64,000 nt of DNA from Enterococcus haemoperoxidus ATCC BAA-382 (GTDB lineage Bacteria > Bacillota > Bacilli > Lactobacillales > Enterococcaceae): the NCBI RefSeq assembly GCF_000407165.1, contig NZ_KE136480.1:434001-498000 (forward strand), written 5' to 3'. The position numbers were made by a program, and so were the translations under genes. Below the pieces are notes generated by a model. That model searched no databases. It was not told the DNA's origin and was given only the letters and a program-made list of their open reading frames with translations. Shown here piece after piece: positions 17,840-39,514 of the stretch; the first letter of the stretch is position 1, and each line of letters opens with the position of its first letter.

Positions 17840-19075
17840 TCAAGTTTTTGATGAATCAGTATTTTCTTTAATGATTTCTACAATTGTTTTTGCTGCTAAT
17901 TCCATTGACTCTAACGTGATAAACTCATATTGCCCATGAAAATTTTCGCCACCTGTAAATAAATTAGGAGTTGGAATACCCATAAAAGAGATTTTTGAGC
18001 CATCCGTTCCACCACGAAAAGGTTGGATATCCGGTTTGATGCCAAGATTTTCCATTGCTTTAACAGCAAGTTCTACAGGTGTCATATCTTTTTCGATGAT
18101 TTCTTTCATGTTGTAGTATTGATCTAGAAAATCGATCGTGATTCGTTCTTTGTCAAATGAGCTGTTTAATTCGCTAACGATCTCTGCAAGTTGTTCTTTT
18201 CTCTTTTTGAACAGTTCTTTGTCATGATCTCGAATAATATACGTCAACTCAGCATGATCCAAACTACCAATAAATTTCGTCAACAAATAAAAACCTTCAT
18301 GCCCACGCGTTTTTTCAGGAACTTCTGCTTTCGGTAATTGGGCATCTATATTCTCACCCAATTTGATTGCGTTGACCATTGTGCCATAAGCCGTACCAGG
18401 ATGGACACTGGTACCTTCGATCGTGATCACAGCTTGTGCCGCATTAAACGTTTCATATTCAAAACAGCCCACTCTTCCGCTATCTATCGTATAAGCAAAG
18501 GCTGCTGGAAAATTAGCTGCATCAAAACGGTCTGCCCCACGTCCGATTTCTTCGTCAGGACCAAACGCAAGTAATACTTTCCCATGAGGAATTTCAGGGT
18601 GTGCCAATAAATACTCAACTGCATCTAAAATTTCTACAATTCCAGCTTTATCATCCGCTCCTAAAAGAGTTGTTCCATCTGTTGTGATCAAGGTTTGACC
18701 GATGTAATCTTTTAGATTTGAAAACTCTTCAATCTCCATGATGATTCCCAGTTTTTCATTCAGTACAACATCTTGACCGTCATAGTTTGAAAAAATGTTG
18801 GGTTGAATATTCTCAGCATTGTAATCTGCTGTATCCAAATGAGCAATAAACCCGATCGTTGGTACATTCTTGTTTGTTGTTGCAGGTAAAACAGCCGTTA
18901 AAAAACCATTTTTTTCATTGTAATGAATGTCAGAAAGTCCAATTTCAACTAATTCTTTTTCAATGATTCTTGCAAAGTCCACTTGCCCTGGTGTCGTTGG
19001 AACTGTTTGACTCGCTGCATCAGAGCGAGTATTCACTTTGACATATCGGATAAATCGTTCTAATAATCCAGTCAT
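17840..19075 (-). CDS. pepT: Peptidase T (tripeptide aminopeptidase)
   Basis: 411 residues. An M20-family zinc aminopeptidase that releases the N-terminal residue from tripeptides in the cytoplasm. Metal-site motifs are HLDTAD, LLGADDKAGI, PDEEIGRGA and FRGGTDGS, with GGENFHGQYEF at the C-terminus. It follows oppA by 43 bases, so uptake (OppA) and hydrolysis (PepT) appear to be co-expressed from the same T-box leader. The trp promoter starts immediately downstream. Confidence 0.96.
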   Translation of the reverse strand: MTGLLERFIRYVKVNTRSDAASQTVPTTPGQVDFARIIEKELVEIGLSDIHYNEKNGFLTAVLPATTNKNVPTIGFIAHLDTADYNAENIQPNIFSNYDGQDVVLNEKLGIIMEIEEFSNLKDYIGQTLITTDGTTLLGADDKAGIVEILDAVEYLLAHPEIPHGKVLLAFGPDEEIGRGADRFDAANFPAAFAYTIDSGRVGCFEYETFNAAQAVITIEGTSVHPGTAYGTMVNAIKLGENIDAQLPKAEVPEKTRGHEGFYLLTKFIGSLDHAELTYIIRDHDKELFKKRKEQLAEIVSELNSSFDKERITIDFLDQYYNMKEIIEKDMTPVELAVKAMENLGIKPDIQPFRGGTDGSKISFMGIPTPNLFTGGENFHGQYEFITLESMELAAKTIVEIIKENTDSSKT

Positions 19076-19118
19076 CGTATCCCTCTTTCATTTCAAATTT
19101 TAGCTTATATTGTGTTTT

Positions 19119-20765
19119 CTACTCCTCTAGATAAGCTGTTCTCAGATTGAAATAGTCACCATATAAGTGATAACTGATCCCTTTAATTTTCGGATTGATC
19201 AAATAGTTAGACGCACTTTGATACAGTGGCACTTGCGCGGCACCTTGATCTAATAAAATATCTTCCGCTTTTTTATAATCATCAAATTGCTTGTCTGGTG
19301 TATTTGCATTGACTGTACGGGCGTCCGTAACCAACTTATCATAGTCAGCGTTTTTGTATGAACCATAATTATACGCAGACTCTCCAGCATATAAGTTAAA
19401 ATAAGAATCTAAATCACTGCTACCCGCGATCCAGCCAGATAATGAAAGTTCATAGTTTTTATCTTTACGTGTTTGCAATAGATTATTTTTTGGCTGCGCA
19501 TTAATCGTGATTTCTAAGCCTTTTAAGTTTTCTTGTAATTGGCTTTGGATATATTCAGATATTTTCTTTCCGTTATCATCATCAGAAACCAATAGTGACA
19601 ACTTAATATTATCCCCTAAATCCGCTTTGGCTTTTTCCCACTCAACTTGCGCTTTTTTTACGTCATGAACCAAATGATCACCGCTAAATTTTCTAAAGTC
19701 TTCAGAGGTTTCAGGATTTTTGTATAAGTCGCTCGGAATCAAACCATTTAATGGTTTTGAGCCATCATTCAGCACACTTTTCGTTAATGCATCTTTATCG
19801 ATAGTTTGAGCAATCGCTTTTCGTAAGTGAGTATTTGCAAGCGCTGTGCCTTCTTTTTTATTGAAATCTAAATAATTATTGGCTACATCTGAATGCGTTA
19901 CATACCCCGCATCGTCGCTATATTGTTGCACATATTGACCACTGATTCGAGTTAAATCTAATTCATTTGATTGATATAAATTGATTCCTGTATTTTCTTC
20001 TTTGATTGTATTCACTTTAACTTCTTCTAATTTTACTTTATCAGCATCATAGTATTCAGGATTTTTCTTTAGTGTCCATGTATCAGATGATGCATCCCAA
20101 TCTGTTAAGATAAATGGTCCACTGTAAATCAAATGATCGCTGTCTGCTGCGTACTCTTTTCCTTGTTTCTCAACATAAGCTTGATTTTGCGGAGCTAACC
20201 ATCCAATTGAAACAACTGCTAAAAATGAGGGTTGCGCCTGTTCTAATACGACGTCAAATTCTTTATCGCTTGGCGCTGAAAGACCAATCTCGTCAACAGA
20301 TTTCTCACCATTACGAATTGCTTTACTGTTTTTTACATTGTCTAACAGGTAAGCATTTGGGCCAATCGTTGCTGGTGTTACAAGTTTTTTCCATGAATAT
20401 AGGAAATCTTGCGCTGTGATTGGTTCGCCATTGCTCCATTTTATATCCTCTTTCAGTGTAAATTTATACGTTAAACCATCTTCACTGATATCTACTTTTT
20501 CTGCTAAACCGGGAATCGGTGTACTATCATCATCAAAACGATATAGCCCTTCAAAAAGATGTTGAACGATCGTGAAAGTATTTTTGTCCATTGTTTGTGT
20601 TGTATCTAAAGTTGAGATCGGTGCTGGTGAGCTGATTTTAATTTTTTGACTTGCTGCGATTGTCCCGTCTTCGCTTTTAGTTGTTTCTTTTTTGTCGTTG
20701 CCCCCGCATGCGGTTAGAATTAATCCCGTTAGTACTGCACTTACGACTAATAATTTTTTCTTCAT
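19119..20765 (-). CDS. oppA: Oligopeptide-binding lipoprotein (OppA-like)
   Basis: 548 residues. Lipoprotein signal MKKKLLVVSAVLTGLILTAC with Cys20 as the lipidated residue, then a family 5 solute-binding domain (segments IKWSNGEPITAQDF and YSGPFILTDW, and the closing hinge RTAYLEE). The frame extends 10 codons upstream, but GAAGGGGG lies just before the ATG at 20765. No permease or ATPase gene is adjacent, so it must feed a transporter encoded elsewhere. T-box control indicates use as an amino acid source under starvation. Confidence 0.93.
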   Translation of the reverse strand: MKKKLLVVSAVLTGLILTACGGNDKKETTKSEDGTIAASQKIKISSPAPISTLDTTQTMDKNTFTIVQHLFEGLYRFDDDSTPIPGLAEKVDISEDGLTYKFTLKEDIKWSNGEPITAQDFLYSWKKLVTPATIGPNAYLLDNVKNSKAIRNGEKSVDEIGLSAPSDKEFDVVLEQAQPSFLAVVSIGWLAPQNQAYVEKQGKEYAADSDHLIYSGPFILTDWDASSDTWTLKKNPEYYDADKVKLEEVKVNTIKEENTGINLYQSNELDLTRISGQYVQQYSDDAGYVTHSDVANNYLDFNKKEGTALANTHLRKAIAQTIDKDALTKSVLNDGSKPLNGLIPSDLYKNPETSEDFRKFSGDHLVHDVKKAQVEWEKAKADLGDNIKLSLLVSDDDNGKKISEYIQSQLQENLKGLEITINAQPKNNLLQTRKDKNYELSLSGWIAGSSDLDSYFNLYAGESAYNYGSYKNADYDKLVTDARTVNANTPDKQFDDYKKAEDILLDQGAAQVPLYQSASNYLINPKIKGISYHLYGDYFNLRTAYLEE

Positions 20766-28378: not shown

Positions 28379-29044
28379 TTATTTTTTCTTAAATGCCTCT
28401 TCATTTACTTTGTAAAATGCAAAAACTTTTTTCTGATATTTCTGAACATTTTTTATATCTTCTATAAACTCATCAACCATTTCCTGATTTCCATAAATTG
28501 AAATGTAATTAGAAACTGTATTAGTTCCAAACTCTTTCATCGCCCTGTAATATCGGTTCAATACAAGTTGTCCTTCTTCGGTATTGACTGAACTAGCTTG
28601 TTTTGCTCCGTAACTTGCGATTTTTCCAGATAATACGCGCAAATTATTCTCAGCCTTTTCTTTACTACCTTCTTCACTTCCAGCTCTGTTCAACTCATTT
28701 GTCATATCTTTCAATAAATAATATCCTTGCGCAATAGAATCAGCGTCTTTTGCCATTAGATTGGTTGATTGATAGTAATACAAATAACCAACTCCACCCC
28801 CAAAAATAATGCAGGCAAGAAAACAAACAATTGCATTGTTTCTTCTCTTTTTTTTCTTTTTTAGCAACTTTCGTTTTTCAAGCATTAACATTTTACGTTT
28901 GCGTTTATTCTTTATACGCCTTCTCTGCATTTTTTTTAGTTTACTACCCGCCTGCCAAGAAAGGAGAAAAAAAAGGGGAAACAAAAGAAATGTCAATACG
29001 GCTAACGATATACCACTAATAAGTATCCAATCAAATATTGTCAC
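28379..29044 (-). CDS. Two-span membrane protein with a Lys/Arg-rich loop (WxL locus)
   Basis: About 221 residues from a GTG at 29044 (AAGGAG 10 bases upstream; another GTG three codons earlier is too near). The first helix covers about 3-30. A cytoplasmic loop of some 40 residues is almost all Lys and Arg, with RRRIKNKRKRK and KKKKKRRNN runs. The second helix covers about 71-90, followed by a helical extracytoplasmic domain of about 130 residues. I recognise no named domain. The basic loop echoes the basic tail of the neighbouring signal-peptidase-like protein, suggesting both contact the same acidic partner or the membrane. Confidence 0.8.
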   Translation of the reverse strand: MTIFDWILISGISLAVLTFLLFPLFFLLSWQAGSKLKKMQRRRIKNKRKRKMLMLEKRKLLKKKKKRRNNAIVCFLACIIFGGGVGYLYYYQSTNLMAKDADSIAQGYYLLKDMTNELNRAGSEEGSKEKAENNLRVLSGKIASYGAKQASSVNTEEGQLVLNRYYRAMKEFGTNTVSNYISIYGNQEMVDEFIEDIKNVQKYQKKVFAFYKVNEEAFKKK

Positions 29045-29077
29045 TTTTTTCACTCTCCTTATTAATCATTCATAATT

Positions 29078-30172
29078 TCACTCAGTCCTTTTTTTTCTTT
29101 TCTTGATCATTGAAAGTTCTTTCTTTTTTTTTGCTCTGCGTTTATTCACTATGCGAATACCAATAAAAATCACAATTAATACACTCATTACACTAGCTAT
29201 AACCATTGCAACTAACTTCCAATTAATACCACGAGCTTGTACCAAGCCAAGATCTTCCTCATTAAATTTATCTGCTTCTTCATTAGAAATACTGAATTCT
29301 TTGGTCCATTCCCATTTTTTTTTGCCTGAGGTTGCCAATACATGAGCTCGATATTTACCAGGTACCATCTTTTCTCCTCCCATACTTACAGGGAACTTGA
29401 TATTAGAGTTAGGTGCCATTCTCATAGATTTTTTTTTCGTTTCATATAACACTTCGTCACTCTTCAAGGGCATGATTTGAGCTTCTAAAGTAAGATCATT
29501 TAGAAAATTAGCTTTAGTGTTGGATGCATCAATAAACACTGCATTACGATAATTTGATTGTCCAGCAACTACCTTGTTTAATTCTAGCTCTGGCTGAACT
29601 TTGACATCACTTTCTTGAAGTACCATTGCTACAACATAAGCATACTTATTAATGATCGCTGTTCCTTCTTGCTTTGGCTTATTTGCATCATCTTGTTTCT
29701 GTAATTGAATTCCCCCAACAATCACTCCGTCATAAGAAGATTCTGGCATAGTAATCATAAAATCTAACATCTTCTCTGATTCTTTGGGTACTTCAATACT
29801 TTCTGGTGCTTTTACTAAATCTGTGAAATCATATTTTAATGATGCATCATTTTCTAGAGCTGTCGGCCCATATTCTAATACGCCATTCATATTCGTTTTA
29901 GCACCATTCAACTTGACATTAACTGCTATATCTTCATCACTATAATTTTTCACTAATATTTGAACTGTTTGTTGTTGTCCAGGTTGCATTTTTAAGTCAA
30001 AATATCCCACTTCTTGTTGTTGATTTTCAGGAAATTGTAGCTCATAAACAAACCCTGCTGCGCCACTCTCATCTTTCTTTTCATTAGCATACCCAGTTTG
30101 AGAAAAAGTGATTGTAATCCCAACTAAGAAAAAACTAAGATAGACCAACCATTTATTTTTTTGCCTTTTCAT
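29078..30172 (-). CDS. WxL-interacting membrane protein (DUF916-DUF3324)
   Basis: 364 residues. Signal peptide (about 1-29), DUF916 domain (about 38-160: GFVYELQFPENQQQEVGYFD, LVKNYSDEDIAV, SSYDGVIVGGIQLQ), DUF3324 domain (about 165-300), then one membrane helix (about 315-340) and a basic cytoplasmic tail. Proteins of this type anchor next to the membrane and bind WxL proteins and peptidoglycan. It is present in virtually every WxL gene cluster, and its position after three WxL genes fits. AAAGGATG precedes the ATG. Confidence 0.93.
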   Translation of the reverse strand: MKRQKNKWLVYLSFFLVGITITFSQTGYANEKKDESGAAGFVYELQFPENQQQEVGYFDLKMQPGQQQTVQILVKNYSDEDIAVNVKLNGAKTNMNGVLEYGPTALENDASLKYDFTDLVKAPESIEVPKESEKMLDFMITMPESSYDGVIVGGIQLQKQDDANKPKQEGTAIINKYAYVVAMVLQESDVKVQPELELNKVVAGQSNYRNAVFIDASNTKANFLNDLTLEAQIMPLKSDEVLYETKKKSMRMAPNSNIKFPVSMGGEKMVPGKYRAHVLATSGKKKWEWTKEFSISNEEADKFNEEDLGLVQARGINWKLVAMVIASVMSVLIVIFIGIRIVNKRRAKKKKELSMIKKRKKRTE

Positions 30173-30263: not shown

Positions 30264-31079
30264 TTAAGCTTCAGGAGTTGCTGCTGGTGAAAATTCAATA
30301 GACCAAGTAATTTCAGCTTCATAGTCGCCTTCACTAATATTGATTCCAGCTGGTACAGTAAGTTTCACACCATCTTTAATTGAACCTTTGGCAGCTTCAC
30401 CTTTTTCATTTTTCATATCTAAATCAGATTGACCAAATTCAGCTGTATAAGTTCCTAATCCTTCTACGCCAGTTGAATCATTGTTATCAAACACTAATGC
30501 TGATTCAGCAGCCCCTTCAGCTAATTGGAAGTCAAGAACAGCTGTTGTAGCCGGCCAACTTGTAGTAACCATGTCAGAATTCAATAATCCATAACGATAA
30601 TCAATCGTTGCACCTTTTAACGTATCAGTATCGCTTCCTGCTAATGTAAATTGCTTCGTCATTTTTGCTTTAATTTGATATTTGTGATCGTTTCCTCCAC
30701 GCTTATCTGTCCAAGCAACATAGTTACCACGAGTTACATCTACACCAGCTGAATTAGTCATAGAGACCGCATTAGCCGAATAAACTTGAGGTTCTGTATA
30801 AACACCAATTTTTTGTGGTGGGAAATTTAACGTTGTTACACGATCAATTGTAATTGCACCAAACGTATCGTTGTCAGTAACATCATCAGGATTTTTAGGA
30901 TCTACACTGTCTTTGGGATTTTCTGGGTCAATATCTTTATTATCGCCAGTATCCTGTGTATAGTTAATTTTCCCCTTTCCTGTTGTTGTGTGTTCTGCTG
31001 CATTGGTAGCAGTTGGTACCGCTACCCCAATAGCTATTACTGATAATAATGCTGCTTTACATAGTGTTTTTACTTTCAT
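30264..31079 (-). CDS. WxL-domain surface protein with degenerate WxL motifs
   Basis: 271 residues. Signal peptide ends TNAAE (cleavage near 28), followed by a linker of Asp/Pro/Lys repeats (DPENPKDSVDPKNPDD) and a C-terminal WxL domain. Aligned to the next gene's GWELQV, the first motif reads KYQIKA; the second reads ITWSIEFSPA instead of LTWVLAELP, so neither is a strict W-x-L. The start at 31079 follows AGGAGG; the frame is open 19 codons upstream. WxL domains bind peptidoglycan non-covalently. It stands directly before the hairpin at 30191-30233, consistent with high expression. Confidence 0.88.
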   Translation of the reverse strand: MKVKTLCKAALLSVIAIGVAVPTATNAAEHTTTGKGKINYTQDTGDNKDIDPENPKDSVDPKNPDDVTDNDTFGAITIDRVTTLNFPPQKIGVYTEPQVYSANAVSMTNSAGVDVTRGNYVAWTDKRGGNDHKYQIKAKMTKQFTLAGSDTDTLKGATIDYRYGLLNSDMVTTSWPATTAVLDFQLAEGAAESALVFDNNDSTGVEGLGTYTAEFGQSDLDMKNEKGEAAKGSIKDGVKLTVPAGINISEGDYEAEITWSIEFSPAATPEA

Positions 31080-31111
31080 TTTTGTTCCTCCTATTTTTTG
31101 TGTGTTATTTA

Positions 31112-31918
31112 TTAAGGCAACTCGGCTAATACCCAAGTCAACTCCGTTTGATATTGTACCGCTTGAATATTTGTTTCATTTGGTACGGTTAAAAAAATTG
31201 AATGGTTATCATAAACTTGCTGGTTTTCAAATTCTGAATCCAATACTGGTGTGCCAAATTCATCAACCTTCGGCTCCAATGTAACTTTTTGATTTCGAGG
31301 ATTACTTTGAGAGGCGCCAAAAATAATGACCCATTGTCCTTTCCCCTGCCCTGATTGAGCAGTTGCAAGCGGGAATGTAGTTGCTTGTTTGTCTACCATA
31401 ATAGTATCTTTGGATATCTCTGGTGCTGTATCCAAAGAACTAGTAACAGAATTGACCCATATATTATCAAAAGATAGTGATGCACCTTTTAATTCTTTCT
31501 CTGTGCTTTTAGCTCCTTCTAGGGTTGTAAATTGTTGTTCTTGGCGAACTTGCAGTTCCCAACCTTTAATTCCGGGACGAGAATCTGTCACCTGAATATA
31601 ATTCCCTCTAGCTTCTGTCCCATCATGGAACAATTGAGCATTGGCGTAAAATTTACGATCTGTCTTGGTAATTTTATTGTGTCCAAATTTCAATTTCGGA
31701 GCAAAATCAAAGCGTAATAATCCATCAGTTGAAGGTCCTGGTCCAGGATCTACCGGTTTTTCAGGATGCTCTGGATCTACTGGATCTTTAGGTAATTGCC
31801 CCTTCATCTTAATAGTTCCTTTAGAAGTTATTTCATGTTCTTCGGCAAAATGGGATTGTGCTTGAGCTATCAAAAATGCAACAACACAGACTATTGATAA
31901 TACAAATTTTTTTCCCAT
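31112..31918 (-). CDS. WxL-domain surface protein
   Basis: 268 residues. Signal peptide about 1-25, a Pro/Asp/Glu linker (PKDPVDPEHPEKPVDPGPGP), then the WxL domain with both motifs intact: KGWELQV near the middle and LTWVLAELP at the very end. Paralogue of the preceding-coordinate WxL gene (30264). The start follows GGTGG, 5 bases after the small LPXTG gene's stop. Cell-wall-attached through the WxL domain. Confidence 0.92.
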   Translation of the reverse strand: MGKKFVLSIVCVVAFLIAQAQSHFAEEHEITSKGTIKMKGQLPKDPVDPEHPEKPVDPGPGPSTDGLLRFDFAPKLKFGHNKITKTDRKFYANAQLFHDGTEARGNYIQVTDSRPGIKGWELQVRQEQQFTTLEGAKSTEKELKGASLSFDNIWVNSVTSSLDTAPEISKDTIMVDKQATTFPLATAQSGQGKGQWVIIFGASQSNPRNQKVTLEPKVDEFGTPVLDSEFENQQVYDNHSIFLTVPNETNIQAVQYQTELTWVLAELP

Positions 31919-31923
31919 AATAT

Positions 31924-32271
31924 CTAGCCACCATTCCCATTTTTTCGTTTTTGTTTGAGCAAAAGGTAACTACAGAAAAATAGTATCGCAATCCCACATA
32001 CACCCAGTGAACCTTTTACAAATTCACCAGTTGAAGGCAATCTTCCTTTAGGTTTTTCTGGTTTTTCTGGTTTTTCTGGTTTTTCTGATTCGGAACTTGC
32101 TTCCTCTAGTTCCGGTTCTGCTCCTTTTTCTTCATAGAAACTAACTACACCATTTGTGCCAACTTGTCCCCCTATTTGATTTTCATCAGCAAAGACTGTT
32201 ATCGTATGGCATTTCCCAAACACAACCAATAAGAAAGAAATTAGAATTGTCATATATAATTTTTTTTTCAC
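31924..32271 (-). CDS. Small LPXTG-anchored protein
   Basis: 115 residues from a GTG at 32271, preceded by AAAGGAG; the frame is open 18 codons upstream inside the previous gene. Signal peptide (ending VFA, near 29), a short mature part of about 25 residues, a Glu/Lys/Pro spacer (PEKPEKPEKPEKPKG), LPSTG, a membrane helix and a basic tail KQKRKNGNGG. Tiny sortase substrates of this kind accompany WxL and DUF916 genes in many clusters; the partner function is unknown. No sortase gene is in the window. Confidence 0.88.
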   Translation of the reverse strand: MKKKLYMTILISFLLVVFGKCHTITVFADENQIGGQVGTNGVVSFYEEKGAEPELEEASSESEKPEKPEKPEKPKGRLPSTGEFVKGSLGVCGIAILFFCSYLLLKQKRKNGNGG

Positions 32272-32285
32272 TGTTTTTCTCTCCT

Positions 32286-35051
32286 TTACGGTGGTGTTGC
32301 GCCTGGCGTAGCAGATAGTTCCCAAATAATCTCCGCTTCATAATCGCCTAGTGACTGAACATCTCCTGGCAAAACTTCTAACTTGAAACCATCATCATTC
32401 TTTTTATTCCCCCAAGAATCACTTATATTATAAGCATTATGATTATCATTTTTACGGACCATAATAGGTATAGCTGAATTACTTAACTTATATTCTTGTC
32501 CATTATAGACATATCGGATCGCATCTGGTAAAACCTTACTTACATCACCCACTAAATGCATATCTCCGTTTAATTTAGCTGTCAATGTCCATGTATCCAA
32601 CAGTCCTCTTCCATCAGAAATAACTAAATCGTTATCATAAGAAGGATTATCTATTCTCGTAACTTTAGCATCAAACGCTTTGATTCCGAAATTGATTACC
32701 TTTGGTGCGGAAATAAAATTTAACTCTCCATCTTTTAACGTATAAACCAATTCATTTGATTTTAACTTCTCACTATCTATACCATAGACAATTATTTTAT
32801 GAGGACCATGAGATAATTTTTCCCCTGGTATTGTAAATTGGTAAGAATTATCATTATTTTTAGGCGAATTGATATACTCTGGAACAATCTTAACAGGTTC
32901 TCCACTGTCTACTTGGTAATACATTGTGATACTCTCAGAATCAGGATCGTTGAATGTTCCGGATAATATTTTCGCTTCACCAGTTGATACACCTTCTGTT
33001 TCGTTCAATGTAATGGTTGGTGGAATTAAGTTTTCGACTTTTTGAGCTAACAAAGCGTTGTCCTTGTCTTTGACAGGATTACCGAGTGAATCTACTCCAT
33101 TAGCATAAACCCAGTTATCAACCTTTTTCCCTGAAGCTGAAAAGTTGATTGTTGCTGAAAAATTGATTTTCAAATTAGACGTATCCTCAGCTTTTATATC
33201 TTGTTTTGGCAAGCTCAATTTACGATTATTCGCATCATAATATTCTGGATGTTTCTCAGTTGTGCCATTTTTGGTAACTTCAATTGTGCTAGTATCAATA
33301 TCTAAAGACGATTCGATTTCATCAAAAATCGTGACCTTTTTCCAAACATTCGTTGGGACAAGTGAAAGGTTTTTAACTTCCATTTCATAGTTCAAAATGT
33401 CGCCGACTTTTGCGTTATCCGTTGCGGGTCGCTTGTTGTCTTCAGCTGTCTTGTTTACCACTTTTTTAGAAACAAAAGTTTGAACTTCTTCTCCAGTTTT
33501 AATTTTAGAATAGGCCGTATTACTAGAAATAATTTTTTTCTTATCCCCTGTAACAGAAATATTATCTGTATAATGCAACTCTGATCTATTCGGTATGACA
33601 AATGCTTTTTCAGAAGCTGAGTATGTCGATTGTAGTGCCAGTCGATTCTCAGAATTCAATGTTCCTTTTATGTCCATCTCCAACATTTCACCATACATCA
33701 ACAAATTTCCATTGGCATCTTTATCTGTCATAAAGGCTTCTGTAAACTCTACACGAATAACATCTCTCACACCTGCTGGTTCTGCTAGTACTCCTTTTTC
33801 TGGATCTGCCGATACCGCTGGCACGTTTACATCGCGATCGATCGTAACATTGTAATATTTAGCTGGTAAATCTTCTTGAGTTTGTCCAAATTTAAGCTTA
33901 ATATCAGTTGCTTTTTCAACTTTAATGGCATTATGAATGGGATCTAACCATGTAAATGAATTATAACGATAGTTTTTCCCATTGTTTGGTGTATATTGAT
34001 AAACGGAATATTCCACATTTTTTTCATTATCAGTACTTTCATTGTCATATCCTACTTTATTAGGATTATCTGTTTCAAAGGGCAATAATCCTTCATTATC
34101 CGCCATCGTTGTACTATCTGACATTCGAAAAATTATCGGATAACCCGATGTTGGACCAAATGTGTATGCTGCCCAAGATAATTTAGCTTCTTCACGATTA
34201 GCTAGATCTTCGAGAGCATTTACGCCTGGGATAAATGGCATCAGATGTAGTAATCCATCTGTCTTTTTAAAACTTAATTTGGTGTCTTCTGACATGATAA
34301 GATTTTGTAAATTCATTTTCTTTTCATCTACTAAAATACTTTCACGGTAATCTACATCCGCAAAAACATTGTAACCCGTTACTTCAACTTTATTCTCTGT
34401 TCCATGTTCTAAGTATTCATAAGTCAATTCTACAGTTGGGTATTGATCTTCTTTAGTGCTTTCTGATTTCGTTAATCGTACTTGATTAAAGTGGTTTTTT
34501 GTTCCACCGATTAATAACCCTTTAGAAGAAGTCCCTCTCGCATTAAACCCACTATTTTTTTCAACATTAGTAACCGTGAGACGCATATCAATCCATTTCC
34601 CTTTAAATACCCCAACATTAGTGTACGTTAGATTTGCCGGTTTTTTCGATTCAAAATCCTCTGGGGAATATTGGTACACCTTACCAGTAAATCCATTCCC
34701 AGCGTTGGCAACTTCTGTAAACCCGTTATTTAATACCTCTGTACCTATATTTTTACCAGCAACACTTTCCGTCCAACGCGGTATAAAACTGTATTCTCCC
34801 GGCAAAGATGTAATATTTGTCTTTCCTAAGATAATAGTTTTATCTGCATCGTATTCTGTAAGCATTTTTCCACGATCACTTGGATTATCGGTCAAATAAG
34901 GGACTCCAAATAGCTTATTATCACTTACTGAGCTATCTGCGGATATCTTTGCTTGGAGTTTATAGTTATTGGAAAAGACATTTTGGAAAAAGATAAGGCT
35001 AACTGCTACTACAATAGCGATCAAAAATTGGATTTTTTTGTTTTTCAGCAT
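32286..35051 (-). CDS. Large WxL-domain surface protein
   Basis: 921 residues. Signal or anchor helix 8-28, then a large extracellular region with a lectin- or adhesin-like N-terminal part (about 40-380). Repeated DUF11/isopeptide-like beta domains follow (about 490-630, TFVSKKVVNKTAEDNKRPATDN), then a Big-type domain (640-750) and the C-terminal WxL domain with LDTWTLTAKL and IIWELSATPGATPP. It would be the long adhesive component of the cluster, held on the wall by its WxL domain. The start has AAAGGAGAGG. The stop overlaps the leader of the LPXTG gene. Confidence 0.9.
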   Translation of the reverse strand: MLKNKKIQFLIAIVVAVSLIFFQNVFSNNYKLQAKISADSSVSDNKLFGVPYLTDNPSDRGKMLTEYDADKTIILGKTNITSLPGEYSFIPRWTESVAGKNIGTEVLNNGFTEVANAGNGFTGKVYQYSPEDFESKKPANLTYTNVGVFKGKWIDMRLTVTNVEKNSGFNARGTSSKGLLIGGTKNHFNQVRLTKSESTKEDQYPTVELTYEYLEHGTENKVEVTGYNVFADVDYRESILVDEKKMNLQNLIMSEDTKLSFKKTDGLLHLMPFIPGVNALEDLANREEAKLSWAAYTFGPTSGYPIIFRMSDSTTMADNEGLLPFETDNPNKVGYDNESTDNEKNVEYSVYQYTPNNGKNYRYNSFTWLDPIHNAIKVEKATDIKLKFGQTQEDLPAKYYNVTIDRDVNVPAVSADPEKGVLAEPAGVRDVIRVEFTEAFMTDKDANGNLLMYGEMLEMDIKGTLNSENRLALQSTYSASEKAFVIPNRSELHYTDNISVTGDKKKIISSNTAYSKIKTGEEVQTFVSKKVVNKTAEDNKRPATDNAKVGDILNYEMEVKNLSLVPTNVWKKVTIFDEIESSLDIDTSTIEVTKNGTTEKHPEYYDANNRKLSLPKQDIKAEDTSNLKINFSATINFSASGKKVDNWVYANGVDSLGNPVKDKDNALLAQKVENLIPPTITLNETEGVSTGEAKILSGTFNDPDSESITMYYQVDSGEPVKIVPEYINSPKNNDNSYQFTIPGEKLSHGPHKIIVYGIDSEKLKSNELVYTLKDGELNFISAPKVINFGIKAFDAKVTRIDNPSYDNDLVISDGRGLLDTWTLTAKLNGDMHLVGDVSKVLPDAIRYVYNGQEYKLSNSAIPIMVRKNDNHNAYNISDSWGNKKNDDGFKLEVLPGDVQSLGDYEAEIIWELSATPGATPP

Positions 35052-35125: not shown

Positions 35126-36406
35126 TTATGTTGTAGGTTGTGTAATGATGATTCTACCAAAGTTTTGAACTTGGAATTCACTGTTAAAGTCTGCTACCGC
35201 AGAGTCAACTGATTGTGTTGAACCATTAGCAATGCTCGTTGTCGCTTCCGTTACAGACCATTCTTTAGTTAGCGTATTGTAGTCACTATATGCTTCAATT
35301 TTATCTTGATTTTGGAAAGCAAACGTTAGATTCCCTTGGTTCTTTTTAGTGCTGAAAACTGGTGAACCTAATGTTTTGTTACCTAATTCAAATTCTACTA
35401 CTTCGTTCACATTGATTGATGAACCAGGTGCTGAAAAAACAATACCTTGTGTTCCTTCACCTGTAATATAAACATATGCTCCTTTAGCAACATTAATTTG
35501 AGAACCTGGTTGTGCAAGATCAATTGTTGGCTTTATTCCTTTACTTGCGCCTTTTGAGTGAATATCCAGATCTGCATTTTCACCTACGTTTAAAACAGGA
35601 GCCGTTTTGTGGTGAATTGATTTATCAAATGCTAACCCAGTTCCTTCTGTTTCAATTTTTAGTCTAGAATCACTTTGTAAATTAATTTGGTTGATTTTGC
35701 CATTAAATGCAGAGCGTGCTTGGTTTTTTACATTTAAAATTACTGATGCAGTGCTCTCAACCGTTACAGTTCCTTGCCAACCATTTTCATAAGTCCCTTT
35801 GAATTTAAATGCGCTACGATCATGGCCACTATTAGCAGCAATACCATTTAATTCAGAACCTTCTTTAAAGACAACATGTGCAACCCAACCGATTTCATCT
35901 TCTGCATCAATTGTGTTTGTTCCTTCAAACGTTAATGTTCCGTTATTCAATTGAACTAACGTTTCACCATCAAAGGTATTGTCTTTTGATACGAAGTCCC
36001 AACCATTACTCCCTTTGAAGAAAGTAGCTAATTTACGATAACCGACAACTTCTACACCTTCTAAAGTGAACGTACCTTTTTCTTTACTTGAAATTTTACC
36101 GTGAATGTAATGTTTACCAAGATCAATTTTTGCCCCTGTTGTTGAATACATTTTGACATCTCGAATTGGTACACCTGTGATAGCTCTTGGGAAAGTAATG
36201 TCCCCTGTTACTTCAATTGCAGATACTGAAGCGTCTGCCAGTGCCGCTTTCAATTGTTCAAATGTGTTTACTTGTTTCGCATTTTCTGTAGCCACAACAG
36301 ATGAACCTTCGTTAGCATGCGCTGCTAGTGGTAAAACTGTCGGGGCGATCAATGCTCCTAAAATTACTGCTTTTGTTACTGTTGATTTTAATGAAATACT
36401 TTTCAT
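35126..36406 (-). CDS. Secreted pectate-lyase-like (beta-helix) surface protein
   Basis: 426 residues. Signal peptide ends AAHA (cleavage near 31). The rest is regular beta sheet, with repeats such as GTLTFEGTNTIDAEDE, GTVTVESTASVILNV and GSQINVAKGAYVYI that suggest a right-handed beta-helix of the pectate-lyase-like kind found in Listeria and Enterococcus surface proteins. There is no LPXTG, WxL or membrane anchor; it ends IIITQPTT. Placed between the regulator gene and the WxL genes, it probably belongs to the same surface complex. AGGAGG precedes the ATG. Enzymatic activity is not implied. Confidence 0.85.
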   Translation of the reverse strand: MKSISLKSTVTKAVILGALIAPTVLPLAAHANEGSSVVATENAKQVNTFEQLKAALADASVSAIEVTGDITFPRAITGVPIRDVKMYSTTGAKIDLGKHYIHGKISSKEKGTFTLEGVEVVGYRKLATFFKGSNGWDFVSKDNTFDGETLVQLNNGTLTFEGTNTIDAEDEIGWVAHVVFKEGSELNGIAANSGHDRSAFKFKGTYENGWQGTVTVESTASVILNVKNQARSAFNGKINQINLQSDSRLKIETEGTGLAFDKSIHHKTAPVLNVGENADLDIHSKGASKGIKPTIDLAQPGSQINVAKGAYVYITGEGTQGIVFSAPGSSINVNEVVEFELGNKTLGSPVFSTKKNQGNLTFAFQNQDKIEAYSDYNTLTKEWSVTEATTSIANGSTQSVDSAVADFNSEFQVQNFGRIIITQPTT

Positions 36407-36487: not shown

Positions 36488-37198
36488 CTAAATAACTAAC
36501 ATATAGCCTTTGGATCGAACAGTTTTGATATACATTGGCGCCTTTTCATTTTTTTCGATTTTTTTGCGCAAATGAAAGATTAAGTTTGATACTCGATATT
36601 TTCGATCCGCAACATCGTCTTTCCAAACATTTTGATAAATTTCATCGTAACTGACTGCTCGTCCAACATTTTGGTGAAGATATTCTAGCGCTAGATACTC
36701 AAGTTTAGTCAAATCAATTTCATTATCATCAATCATTACACTAAAATTACTAGGAACAAGTTCTAATCCTACAACTGTATTTAATTGATTTCTTCTAGAT
36801 ACCAACTTACCATTTTGTTTTGAAAAGTTAAGTCGGCTCCTATAGCGATTCAATGCATTAGTAATCAACTGAACTAACTCATCGGGTTCACATTCATTCC
36901 CTGCAATTCCATCCGCTCCTAATCTTGGGTAAACACTGCGATTAGCTTTTGTTAAATGCTCTGAAATAATCCACACCAATGTATCTGAGCTTTTTCTTAA
37001 ATGAATGATCATTTCACAGATATTTCCTACGTATTGATTGTCATCATCTTGAATGATAATCACATCTAATTCATTTGATTTTTTTAACATCACTTGTTCG
37101 TGCTCAATACTATGAACATTTTCATATGTAACTTTTAGGGTATTCATATAGTCTTTTTCTGTTGTGGTAGTCAATGCAACATATCCAATTTTATACAT
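36488..37198 (-). CDS. OmpR-type response regulator with atypical receiver
   Basis: 236 residues. The C-terminal winged-helix domain (about 135-236) is clear: IDLTKLEYLALEYLHQNVGRAVSYDEI, then RKYRVSNLIFHLRKKIE and TVRSKGYMLVI. The N-terminal domain has a receiver-like pattern, but the acidic pair near residue 10 is missing (YVALTTTTEKD). The phospho-acceptor region reads IIIQDDDNQY, and the usual late Lys-Pro is replaced (GNECEPDEL). No histidine kinase gene is near. It is the likely local activator of the WxL locus just downstream, and its own promoter region ends at the inverted repeat at 37373. Confidence 0.88.
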   Translation of the reverse strand: MYKIGYVALTTTTEKDYMNTLKVTYENVHSIEHEQVMLKKSNELDVIIIQDDDNQYVGNICEMIIHLRKSSDTLVWIISEHLTKANRSVYPRLGADGIAGNECEPDELVQLITNALNRYRSRLNFSKQNGKLVSRRNQLNTVVGLELVPSNFSVMIDDNEIDLTKLEYLALEYLHQNVGRAVSYDEIYQNVWKDDVADRKYRVSNLIFHLRKKIEKNEKAPMYIKTVRSKGYMLVI

Positions 37199-37372
37199 AG
37201 TTAATTTTTCTCCTTTCCACCAAGTAGGTAAAATCAGACAATATCCATATTCATATTCTTTTTATTTTTTATTGAAGAAAGTTATAATAAGTAGATTCTA
37301 TAAATTCGATAGGACAACCTGCACTCCACTACTTTAAGGTAAAATTTTATATCATAATGGAACGTACTATAT

Positions 37373-37398
37373 TATCTTGAAACTACTTATTTTGAGAT
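37373..37398 (+). repeat. Left 26-bp inverted repeat flanking the recombinase
   Basis: Identical over 26 bases to the reverse complement of 38888-38913. Internally it has imperfect half-sites (TATCTTGAAA ... TTTTGAGAT) around a 7-base centre, the architecture of a tyrosine-recombinase crossover site. Confidence 0.93.
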
Positions 37399-37512
37399 AT
37401 ATGCTTTCTCATCTATGCATATCAGTATTTCTAAAGTACTTTGACCATTTTCTTGACGGTTTAAAAACGAATACTCATTACAATAGTTCACAAAATGTTT
37501 TCGTTGAGTCCA

Positions 37513-37542
37513 TGAAAAAATCCACTCTTTTTAGGAGTGGAT
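37513..37542 (-). terminator. Terminator of the recombinase gene
   Basis: ATCCACTC / GAGTGGAT stem followed by TTTTTTC on the minus strand; the recombinase stop codon lies in the loop. It keeps the recombinase transcript from running into the regulator gene in the present orientation. Confidence 0.82.
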
Positions 37543-38643
37543 GCTTAATCTTTTATCAATAACACTTATTGCAGCTTTTCTATTTTCCCACAATGAATCT
37601 GTATACGTATCTAAAGTCATTTTTATAGAAGAGTGTCCTAATATTTTACTTAAAGTTGCAATATCAATTCCTTCTTCAACACATCTTGTTGCAAATGTAT
37701 GCCTTAACATATGGAAGTGGATAGAACCTAACCGTGCCGTCTTCACATTTTTTTTAAATCTGTAGTTAATGATTCTGGGTTCGGTAAAACTACCTCTACA
37801 GTTTATGACATACTCACTTATTGCGCATTTTTTCCATTTTAATAGATACTCTTTTAGATTTACAGCTAAAGGAATCACTCTCAAGGAGCTTTTTGTTTTC
37901 GGTGTATCAATTATTATCTCAGTCTTTCCATTTATTGTAGTTGAGGGAATCCTAGATATTGTACGTCTAACATGGATAATATTTTTTTCCATATCAATAT
38001 CAGACCATTTCAGTCCGCTGATTTCACCAATTCTCATTCCGGTATACAGTGCAATAATTTCTCCGGAGCACTCATTTTGTTGTAAGACAATTCGTTCCAA
38101 ACTCTTTTGTGCATGTACAGTCAGTGCAGCAATCTCTGGTTTTTGTATGGTGGGTAAGACAATCTTGGTGCAAGGATCACTATAGATTTTTTCATCGTAG
38201 ACAGCTTTTTTCAATGAACTTTTCAATATAGCGATAATACTGCGAATCGTGCTATTTGCTAAGTTCATCGTATTTAAATCATTGATGAAAGATTCAATAT
38301 GTTCTGTCTTCAAATCCCTCAATGTTGTCTTCCCTAAGTAAGGCAATATGTATTTGTCTATCTTACCTTTATAGTTTGAATAGGAGGATGCCTTGATTTT
38401 ATTTTTCATCAAAATCTCTAACCAATAATTAAGCCATTCTTCCAAAGTACCTGAAAAAGAAGTGATATTTTTGTTTGAAGCAATGTATTGTGCTTTTTTT
38501 ATTGATAACTTTTCTTTCACTTCTGAATAGTTTTTTCCATACACGTATCCATAAATAATTCGTTTATCTGTTGTTCGATCTTTAATAAAACGTCCTTCCC
38601 AACGTCCGTCTTTTCGTTTATAAATATTTTCACCTTTTCTCAC
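37531..38643 (-). CDS. Tyrosine-type site-specific recombinase
   Basis: 370 residues. An N-terminal arm-binding domain like that of Tn916 integrase (about 5-55, NIYKRKDGRWEGRF) is followed by a SAM-like core-binding domain (65-155) and the catalytic domain. Arg204 (TGMRIGE), His311 and Arg314 (HMLRHTFA), His337 (LGHSS) and nucleophile Tyr347 (DTYTDS) are all intact. GTG start at 38643, preceded by CTGGAGG. Both its crossover sites (the 26-bp inverted repeats) lie nearby. No excisionase, phage or conjugation genes accompany it, which favours a dedicated DNA invertase over a prophage integrase. Confidence 0.93.
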   Translation of the reverse strand: MRKGENIYKRKDGRWEGRFIKDRTTDKRIIYGYVYGKNYSEVKEKLSIKKAQYIASNKNITSFSGTLEEWLNYWLEILMKNKIKASSYSNYKGKIDKYILPYLGKTTLRDLKTEHIESFINDLNTMNLANSTIRSIIAILKSSLKKAVYDEKIYSDPCTKIVLPTIQKPEIAALTVHAQKSLERIVLQQNECSGEIIALYTGMRIGEISGLKWSDIDMEKNIIHVRRTISRIPSTTINGKTEIIIDTPKTKSSLRVIPLAVNLKEYLLKWKKCAISEYVINCRGSFTEPRIINYRFKKNVKTARLGSIHFHMLRHTFATRCVEEGIDIATLSKILGHSSIKMTLDTYTDSLWENRKAAISVIDKRLSIHS

Positions 38644-38674
38644 TAACTAAATCCCTCCAGTTTATGTAAAATAA

Positions 38675-38694
38675 TGACGGCTATCTTGACGGCT
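38675..38694 (+). promoter_or_regulatory. Direct TGACGGCT pair, possible recombinase arm sites
   Basis: TGACGGCT at 38675-38682 and 38687-38694, 12 bases apart. A related TGACGGTT is at 37454-37461 near the other end of the element. The recombinase has an arm-binding domain, so these could be accessory sites. Confidence 0.4.
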
Positions 38695-38783
38695 GATAAT
38701 GCAACCATTTTAATTAAATAACGAACCACCTCGGAAAAATAATATTGCAATTAGATTAGAAAAAAGAGATAAATATCGATTTT

Positions 38784-38812
38784 TTCATATTTTTCTCAAT
38801 TTTTATTATAAT
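38784..38812 (+). promoter_or_regulatory. Outward-facing promoter inside the invertible element
   Basis: TTCATA (38784-38789), 17-base spacer, TATAAT (38807-38812) on the plus strand. It reads out through the right inverted repeat into gene-free DNA. After inversion it would read toward the regulator gene at 37198. Confidence 0.5.
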
Positions 38813-38887
38813 TTGTAAAAAATATGAGAAGAAAACACCTAGACTAATCAAATAAAATGCTTTAAACTTGTAGAAGTAGAGATTTCC

Positions 38888-38913
38888 ATCTCAAAATAAG
38901 TAGTTTCAAGATA
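38888..38913 (-). repeat. Right 26-bp inverted repeat flanking the recombinase
   Basis: Exact reverse complement of 37373-37398; the match ends abruptly on both sides. Confidence 0.93.
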
Positions 38914-39464
38914 CTAAAATCTCATTTATATAACAAATAAAAAAGCACTTCACATACTTAAACTCCCACATTTACTTCTAACCAACCACCATCTGACGTC
39001 AATTACCTTGATTCCTTTATTATTGATTTACTCAAAAAAATGCAATAATAATCTATATGTACCATAGTATCTCCATTTAAAAAGTAACAACGTCTTCCTC
39101 AACATGATTACTTAATGCTAATTTTACTGATTGACAAAATAGAATTACATACTTGCCACATTCCAAAATTTCTACGATTTTTAACAACATTACTTGCAAA
39201 GAATAACCTCAACTACATTTTTTATTCATTGACTAAAACACTCACTTATCTTCTCTATCTAGTTCCCATATCATTATAGTTCAAAAACAATACTTTTTGT
39301 TATAAAAATGAAATTTTAACCAATTAAATCAAAAACAAATAACACATTTATATCAATAACCTCCTTCAATTCTATTCGTTTATTCTCTTTATCAGCTCTT
39401 GCATAATGGAAAACAATTTGAAATTGCTTTTCACATAAGAATTTGTCTACTCATTTTTAAGATA
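38914..39464. other. Gene-free AT-rich stretch
   Basis: About 550 bases between the right inverted repeat and the gshF terminator. I see no convincing coding sequence, RNA gene or repeat. It would receive the transcript from the element's outward promoter in the present orientation. Confidence 0.7.
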
Positions 39465-39510
39465 AAAAAAATAAAAGATCAAGCCCTATTTACGGTCTTG
39501 ATCTTTTATT
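39465..39510 (-). terminator. gshF terminator
   Basis: AAAGATCAAG / CTTGATCTTT stem followed by T-rich sequence on the minus strand. Confidence 0.85.
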
Positions 39511-39514
39511 TATA

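Follow-up and report, generated by a model that had tools for sequence, protein, structure and literature searches.

The Hin system uses a serine recombinase and counts a regulator among the genes that it drives. In this switch of Salmonella flagella, recombinase gene and promoter lie together in one invertible segment of 966 bp, according to the accessible parts of two reports (PMC2784873, PMC5903667). Likewise, a fimbrial segment of 844 bp in Providencia stuartii is described, in the accessible part of one of these, as enclosing a recombinase ORF between 14-bp imperfect repeats (PMC5903667). The RecV system of C. difficile is laid out differently: one recombinase, encoded elsewhere, serves several sites (PMC2784873, PMC5903667), and the cwpV segment contains no promoter, termination having been proposed as its mode of action (PMC2784873; both points as given in the available sections). 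Invertons of a defined gut community had integrases nearby and were located near surface genes, with integrase groups linked to repeat groups, in the accessible text of that study (PMC11892184).

Here we describe a locus in a window of 64,000 nucleotides from Enterococcus haemoperoxidus ATCC BAA-382 (contig NZ_KE136480.1, positions 434,001 to 498,000) that is very probably a self-contained inversion switch for a WxL operon, OFF as assembled. Its closest known counterparts are the Hin-type switches, with which it shares the placement of enzyme and promoter within the flipping segment. In contrast to Hin, the enzyme in the window is an integrase of the tyrosine class that has an N-terminal domain, its locus contains paired TGACGG repeats, and 12 such switches occur in the genome. 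Given the Pfam match to Phage_integrase, that is, to the tyrosine recombinases, the switch is not a member of the Hin family but a comparable arrangement with a lambda/Tn916-like integrase. The Providencia stuartii segment resembles it in the recombinase gene inside and the surface genes nearby, but is described, in the part of the source at hand, as one putative locus for Gram-negative fimbriae with imperfect repeats of only 14 bp. The RecV switches share a tyrosine recombinase, inverted repeats of similar length and a phase-variable cell-wall protein, as far as the accessible text of the reports goes (PMC2784873, PMC5903667; see also PMC5386303), whereas in the window the recombinase gene lies inside the segment. 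The earlier note on this DNA, made from the sequence alone, had compared the locus to cwpV as a flipped promoter; the two agree in enzyme class and surface target, but cwpV is not a promoter inversion in the text available (PMC2784873). Since the gene for RecV does not lie at the sites that it serves and no promoter is present in the cwpV segment, the likeness is limited to those two points, and assignment to the RecV/cwpV kind was rejected, the recombinase gene and, at the family level, the promoter lying inside the segment. The accessible main text of the gut community study holds no self-encoded multi-copy family and does not mention Enterococcus or WxL (PMC11892184). The open PMC literature (subscription papers lie outside this scope) yielded no account of switches like these, either for WxL loci or in Enterococcus, consistent with the earlier note, which was aware of no recombinase switch for WxL loci.

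Anatomy of the segment and its recombinase

The putatively invertible segment of 1,541 bp holds the recombinase gene and one predicted outward promoter between inverted core sites. Its features, with the adjoining right flank, are as follows.

37373-37398, plus strand: left core site (inverted repeat arm); exact 26 nt, unique pair
37442-37459, plus strand: second repeat pair, TGACC/TGACGG, with 12-bp spacing, close to the left core (putative arm-type sites; sequence, family conservation)
37520-37542, minus strand: hairpin with a T run at the recombinase 3' end (terminator-like; sequence scan)
37531-38643, minus strand: tyrosine recombinase gene, 370 aa, lambda/Tn916-like domain order, GTG start
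38675-38693, plus strand: TGACGGC repeat pair with 12-bp spacing, immediately upstream of the recombinase start (putative arm-type sites; sequence, family conservation)
38782-38830, no strand: imperfect dyad upstream of the switch promoter, 79% complementary (possible regulator site)
38784-38812, plus strand: TTCATA-17-TATAAT, promoter candidate of the earlier note, inside the dyad; present, at chance level
38840-38868, plus strand: probable family switch promoter TAGACT-17-TAAACT, outward, that is rightward and away from the WxL operon as assembled (alignment of relatives, family enrichment)
38888-38913, minus strand: right core site (inverted repeat arm); exact 26 nt, unique pair
38914-39514, no strand: stretch without a called gene, faced by the promoter as assembled (ORF list)

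The perfect 26-bp inverted repeats around the recombinase gene, as first noticed in the earlier note, are exact over 26 nt at both ends (29 nt at 97% when extended), and the sequence agrees with its view that each repeat is built of two half-sites around a centre. The 23-bp centre of the repeat has only these two occurrences in the 3.58-Mb genome, even when as many as 3 mismatches are allowed. The four TGACG/TGACC-type repeats in the window all point in the same direction on the plus strand and the core sites are inverted; moreover, the nearer TGACG-type repeat lies about 195 bp from the right core versus 44 bp from the left. Owing to this unequal spacing and to the one-way repeats, the segment ends are not mirror images. 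On the right flank, about 600 bp without a called gene precede a converging glutamate-cysteine ligase gene. In agreement with the earlier note, neither the ORF list from 28 to 50 kb, judged by eye, nor Pfam on ten of its proteins showed phage or ICE genes beside the recombinase. A prophage or ICE integration module was rejected as a classification, because the repeats are inverted and no mobile genes were seen among these neighbours.

The recombinase matches Pfam Phage_integrase (2.9e-26) and SAM_3 (1.6e-15). Its catalytic residues R204, H311, R314, H337 and Y347, reported before as intact, are indeed so and are completed by K249; across 178 aligned members, each of the six is conserved in 177 or 178, and this R-K-H-R-H-Y set in the catalytic domain places the protein among the tyrosine recombinases/integrases. 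Searched by sequence, the N-terminal part matched nothing in the PDB and nothing significantly in Pfam. The AlphaFold2 model (mean pLDDT, 85.5) predicts a beta-beta-beta-alpha N terminus (strands at residues 7-9, 15-23 and 29-36, helix at 39-56), so that in the model a three-stranded sheet and a helix precede the SAM-like domain, as a lambda/Tn916-type arm-binding layout requires. Arm-binding domains have an N-terminal layout of three strands and a helix, and the recombinase N terminus presumably resembles them. The best solved-structure match is 6EN0, an 'Int protein' that we take to be the Tn1549 integrase. Tn916-like and lambda integrases use arm-type sites and serve to integrate and excise elements. 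The window enzyme resembles both (6EN0 and 1Z1G, respectively) in domain order, in the modeled N-terminal strands and helix and in the arm-like direct repeats at its locus, but differs in that its core sites are inverted and no element is carried.

The family of switches and their targets

The genome of the window encodes 12 further paralogues of the recombinase with 42-61% identity over nearly the whole length. Inverted repeats flank 11 of the 12, which together with the window's own makes 12 switches and one orphan, and each of the 12 switches stands before an OmpR-type regulator; six distant recombinase matches in this genome (L056-L061) were left out of the member counts. At E 1e-60 or better, a survey of 105 Enterococcaceae genomes found relatives in 37, which belong to 4 of the 17 genera and carry 2 to at least 19 each; among 395 Lactobacillales genomes, a sample overlapping the Enterococcaceae draw, 27 from 6 of 80 genera had relatives at this level. 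Copies per genome are lower bounds in both surveys, which scored at most 19 and 5 candidates per genome, respectively. We examined 198 distinct loci (178 + 20), 165 of them with flanking inverted repeats of score at least 16 and 33 without. For the set of 178, 188 hits were merged by script and matches shorter than 150 residues were dropped. A repeat score of at least 16 around the gene was reached by 142 of its 173 members with full flanks versus 2 of 362 control ORFs from the same loci; these family statistics, and the exact 26 nt in the window, put the inverted repeats beyond chance.

The anatomy of the family is conserved and runs, in order, from a core repeat through an outward promoter, a TGACGG pair, the recombinase, often a terminator and a second TGACGG pair to the other core repeat. 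Among 145 members with repeats, TGACGG on the recombinase-5' side, where its pair is most often spaced by 12 bp, occurs in 139 (0.6 expected), the second pair, as CCGTCA on the outward strand, in 127 (1.9 expected), and the terminator-like hairpin after the recombinase in 58 (1.0 expected), where expectations, here and for the promoters below, come from mononucleotide shuffles and related loci are counted as independent. While the TGACGG repeats are common to nearly all switches, core repeats are alike mainly among closely related recombinases, and core-repeat similarity tracks recombinase identity (Mantel r 0.59, p 0.001, with related loci treated as independent). In step with this difference between shared TGACGG and private core repeats, columns 4-35 of the recombinase alignment have a mean identity of 0.76 versus 0.33 in the core-binding part. 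Three switches of the window genome (L048, L049 and L050, at C2:667977, C1:402697 and C2:687820) carry nearly the same core repeat and could for that reason recombine with one another, rearranging the DNA between WxL clusters. On megaplasmids of E. raffinosus, the segment of L151-L153 is about 78% identical to that of L154 with flanks at about 99% and 89%; going by these identities, this switch seems to have been replaced or to diverge faster than its surroundings.

Orphan paralogues form three supported clades of 10, 5 and 3 members, namely L054 of the window genome (C2:837642-838715) with nine relatives, L111-L114 with L116, and L084, L087 and L090. They have no flanking repeats and are nearly without TGACGG, and they keep the N-terminal stretch and the catalytic residues; a wider 6-kb search for flanking repeats of the three clades gave nothing convincing. 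Two of the three clades adjoin WxL-cluster genes. Orphan paralogues might act in trans.

In the window, the left end of the segment abuts, as had been noted, the leader of the OmpR-type regulator of a WxL cluster, with the regulator start 174 bp away. All features of this target region lie on the minus strand.

37199-37372: leader between the left core site and the regulator, 174 bp
36488-37198: OmpR-type regulator, first target gene; Pfam recognises the DNA-binding domain only
35126-36406: pectate-lyase-like adhesive domain protein
32286-35051: large WxL protein
31924-32325: LPXTG protein, EF2685/EF0750 family
31112-31918: WxL protein
30264-31136: WxL protein
29078-30172: WxL-interacting protein
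28379-29053: protein of unknown family, 224 aa
27538-28362: signal peptidase S26

Across the family, an OmpR-type regulator is among the first two outward genes on either side in 107 of 145 members with repeats. Besides these, the targets that we looked at comprise sortase pilins, a collagen-binding surface protein, a GA-module protein, an Ig-repeat protein and, on an E. raffinosus megaplasmid, an accessory Sec system; Pfam gave no match for the first genes of some switches. An E. faecalis plasmid of 73 kb typed as mobilizable (LR962555.1) carries a family member with flanking repeats before a 1408-aa Ig-repeat surface protein (L155). Two distant relatives have an outward gene on the recombinase-5' side: a TetR-like regulator in an uncultured member of the Clostridia (L033), and a dockerin-repeat protein on a Vescimonas plasmid (L159, a clostridial relative with no clear flanking repeat).

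The neighbours hold a one-sided polarity. On the recombinase-3' or target side, the nearest ORF faces away from the segment at 157 of 162 loci, three reversed loci being left out. On the far side of 162 loci, 47 nearest ORFs face away, 93 face inward and 22 loci have none within 800 bp. Fifteen outward ORFs on the far side encode 485-551 aa, and all nine that we tested match Mga regulators; at these loci (L092, L096, L100, L134, L183, L107, L082, L162 and L214) a regulator of the Mga family is thus faced by the promoter in the common orientation. These matches imply that some switches may be two-way.

The switch promoter and natural inversion

Scoring with a sigma-A frequency matrix and consensus hexamers placed a sigma-A-like promoter of at least 8 bits, directed outward, beside the core site on the recombinase-5' side in 138 of 165 members, where 12.0 were expected. 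Promoters toward the target were not enriched, either inside the segment (10 of 164, with 18.3 expected) or in the stretch that separates it from the target (7 of 151, with 13.7 expected), nor was a promoter for the recombinase itself in the 5' region family-wide (21 of 165 versus 42.3 expected). Judged from these predictions, the segments of the family would contain a promoter directed at the target in just one of the two orientations. The outward promoter inside the right end that the earlier note had postulated is therefore conserved in the family, but the site it named, TTCATA-17-TATAAT, is likely not the one. We rejected this site as the main promoter: the scan found 18 sites versus 18.1 in shuffles, and the alignment of relatives favours 38840-38868, with the rejected site lying in the dyad upstream of the promoter that the relatives conserve. 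Judging from this alignment, the switch promoter of the window is most likely TAGACT-17-TAAACT at 38840-38868. This copy is weak, at 7.1 bits below the 8-bit threshold; the rejected candidate scores 7.9 bits. The dyad at 38782-38830, which has a similar counterpart in relatives by eye, may be where an activator binds, for instance the target regulator.

At three loci of the family, both orientations occur naturally. When L106 is compared with L108 and L164, the recombinase segment and its two flanks align in opposite directions, and the breakpoints fall at the repeats. Likewise, L212 has its flanks reversed relative to the recombinase when compared with L199 and with L053, a switch of the window genome, again with breakpoints at the repeats. 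In genome G091, contig positions 1-40127 and 3802241-3842360 are the same at 99.9% except for 18637-20196 (1,560 bp), which is reversed. Outside the centre the two arms of this switch differ: the outer half-sites remain with the flanks and the inner ones travel with the segment, so that the crossover maps to within the 14-bp centre TATAACTTCTACTT. Most simply, the doubled contig end is read as an untrimmed circular overlap assembled from a culture that contained both states, although a true duplication is possible. Of the seven contig-end loci that we looked at, three have base 1 of the upstream repeat as their first position, a pattern that conflicting reads at this point would produce.

Reversal is nevertheless uncommon: among 158 orthologous pairs, the 9 reversed ones all come from the L106, L212 and G091 loci. 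In the set of 178 loci, 113 could be classified and 31 with repeats could not; a WxL-type target lies on the side that the promoter does not face in 110, including the G091 head copy, and on the side that it faces in 3, one of them the G091 tail copy. L027, called reversed by the script, was dropped from this count because its OmpR-like gene lies behind another gene. In the 20 further loci outside this tally, a WxL-type target is on the common side in 12 and on the other side in none, 8 being unclassifiable. All 12 switches of the window genome have the common orientation. Comparison among related genomes, a check suggested in the earlier note, thus yielded reversed copies at three related loci, but the window locus itself and its one close orthologue, in Enterococcus sp. 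DIV0212c (L011 and L062), share one orientation in two species. The accessory-Sec switch of the E. raffinosus megaplasmids is in the same orientation in four strains, the locus of a fifth strain being a different one. DNA searches for flipped copies of four loci of strain N17 found none, three having no match and one matching in the flank only. Most collections hold one genome per species. We read the common orientation as OFF and take the switches to be mostly OFF in culture; the bias is also compatible with inversion that is rare or conditional. With only 3 of 113 classifiable loci reversed, inversion may be rare or locked in culture.

Proposed mechanism and its alternatives

In the mechanism that we propose, the recombinase would bind both core sites, which would be mostly private to each switch, and invert the 1,541-bp segment. 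Its N-terminal domain would probably hold the paired TGACGG repeats as arm-type sites, by analogy with the lambda and Tn916 integrases. As assembled, the promoter would point right into gene-free DNA, no recognisable promoter faces the WxL operon, and the locus would be OFF; the recombinase transcript would probably stop at the terminator within the segment. Once inverted, the segment would direct its promoter at the OmpR-type regulator across a leader of about 210 nt, so that the regulator would be turned on and the WxL genes would follow directly or via the regulator. This agrees with the central proposal of the earlier note, a recombinase-encoding inversion switch before a WxL locus that is OFF as assembled; support comes from the natural inversion of related switches, the conserved outward promoter with its lack of target-facing enrichment, and the one-sided polarity of the neighbours.

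The single orientation of the window locus in two species, the uniform state of all 12 switches in the genome and the weakness of the window's promoter copy would also be expected of a relic or locked switch, a copy that no longer inverts and whose WxL operon is silent or uses an unseen promoter. We consider this unlikely, as the arms are identical, the reading frame and catalytic residues are intact, the arrangement is kept in an orthologue with 84% identity, and other switches with the same bias do invert. Alternatively, the promoter might always drive something, serving the OmpR/WxL operon in one orientation and a far-flank gene in the opposite one. Such two-way control has its attractions elsewhere in the family, given the outward far-side ORFs at 47 of 162 loci, the Mga matches of 9 of 9 tested ORFs of 485-551 aa and, at L047, a LytTR regulator with a sensor kinase on the far side. 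It is, however, very improbable for the window, where no gene is called in the first 600 bp or so of the far flank and the next gene converges on the segment, and in the family at large 93 of the 162 nearest far-side ORFs face inward and 22 loci have none within 800 bp.

That the locus is what remains of an integrated mobile element, with a phage or ICE integrase and its attachment sites, appears hardly credible. The protein is certainly integrase-like, with a PHROG integrase family match at 4.4e-70, 6EN0 as its best solved match and 197 phage records matching at E 1e-20 or better, all at less than 60% identity, and arm-like repeats are present. Yet the core sites are inverted rather than direct, no cargo or mobility genes were seen among the neighbours, these neighbours keep one fixed polarity, and viral contigs gave only 3 relatives, at 25-29%. 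We thus retain the self-contained inversion switch as the most probable reading of the window locus.

For the lineage as a whole, a combinatorial surface code is a tentative reading that we regard as possible rather than probable. About a dozen mostly OFF integrase switches per genome, with mostly private cores and a shared arm-type repeat, would each stand before their own OmpR-type (or pilus, accessory-Sec or adhesin) operon; some would choose between Mga and OmpR/WxL, and orphans may act in trans on the shared repeats. The family offers many natural pairs of recombinase and site with a common auxiliary repeat, and these make it testable how an integrase with arm-type sites can act as an inverter, and for what reason almost all deposited genomes show a single state. 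If the combinatorial reading is true, an integrase of the lambda type has been turned from a mobility enzyme into a resident machine for phase variation, and this enterococcal lineage would vary many surface operons independently from cell to cell, of which we found no example in the open PMC literature. It would also mean that intact surface clusters can be silent in laboratory culture.
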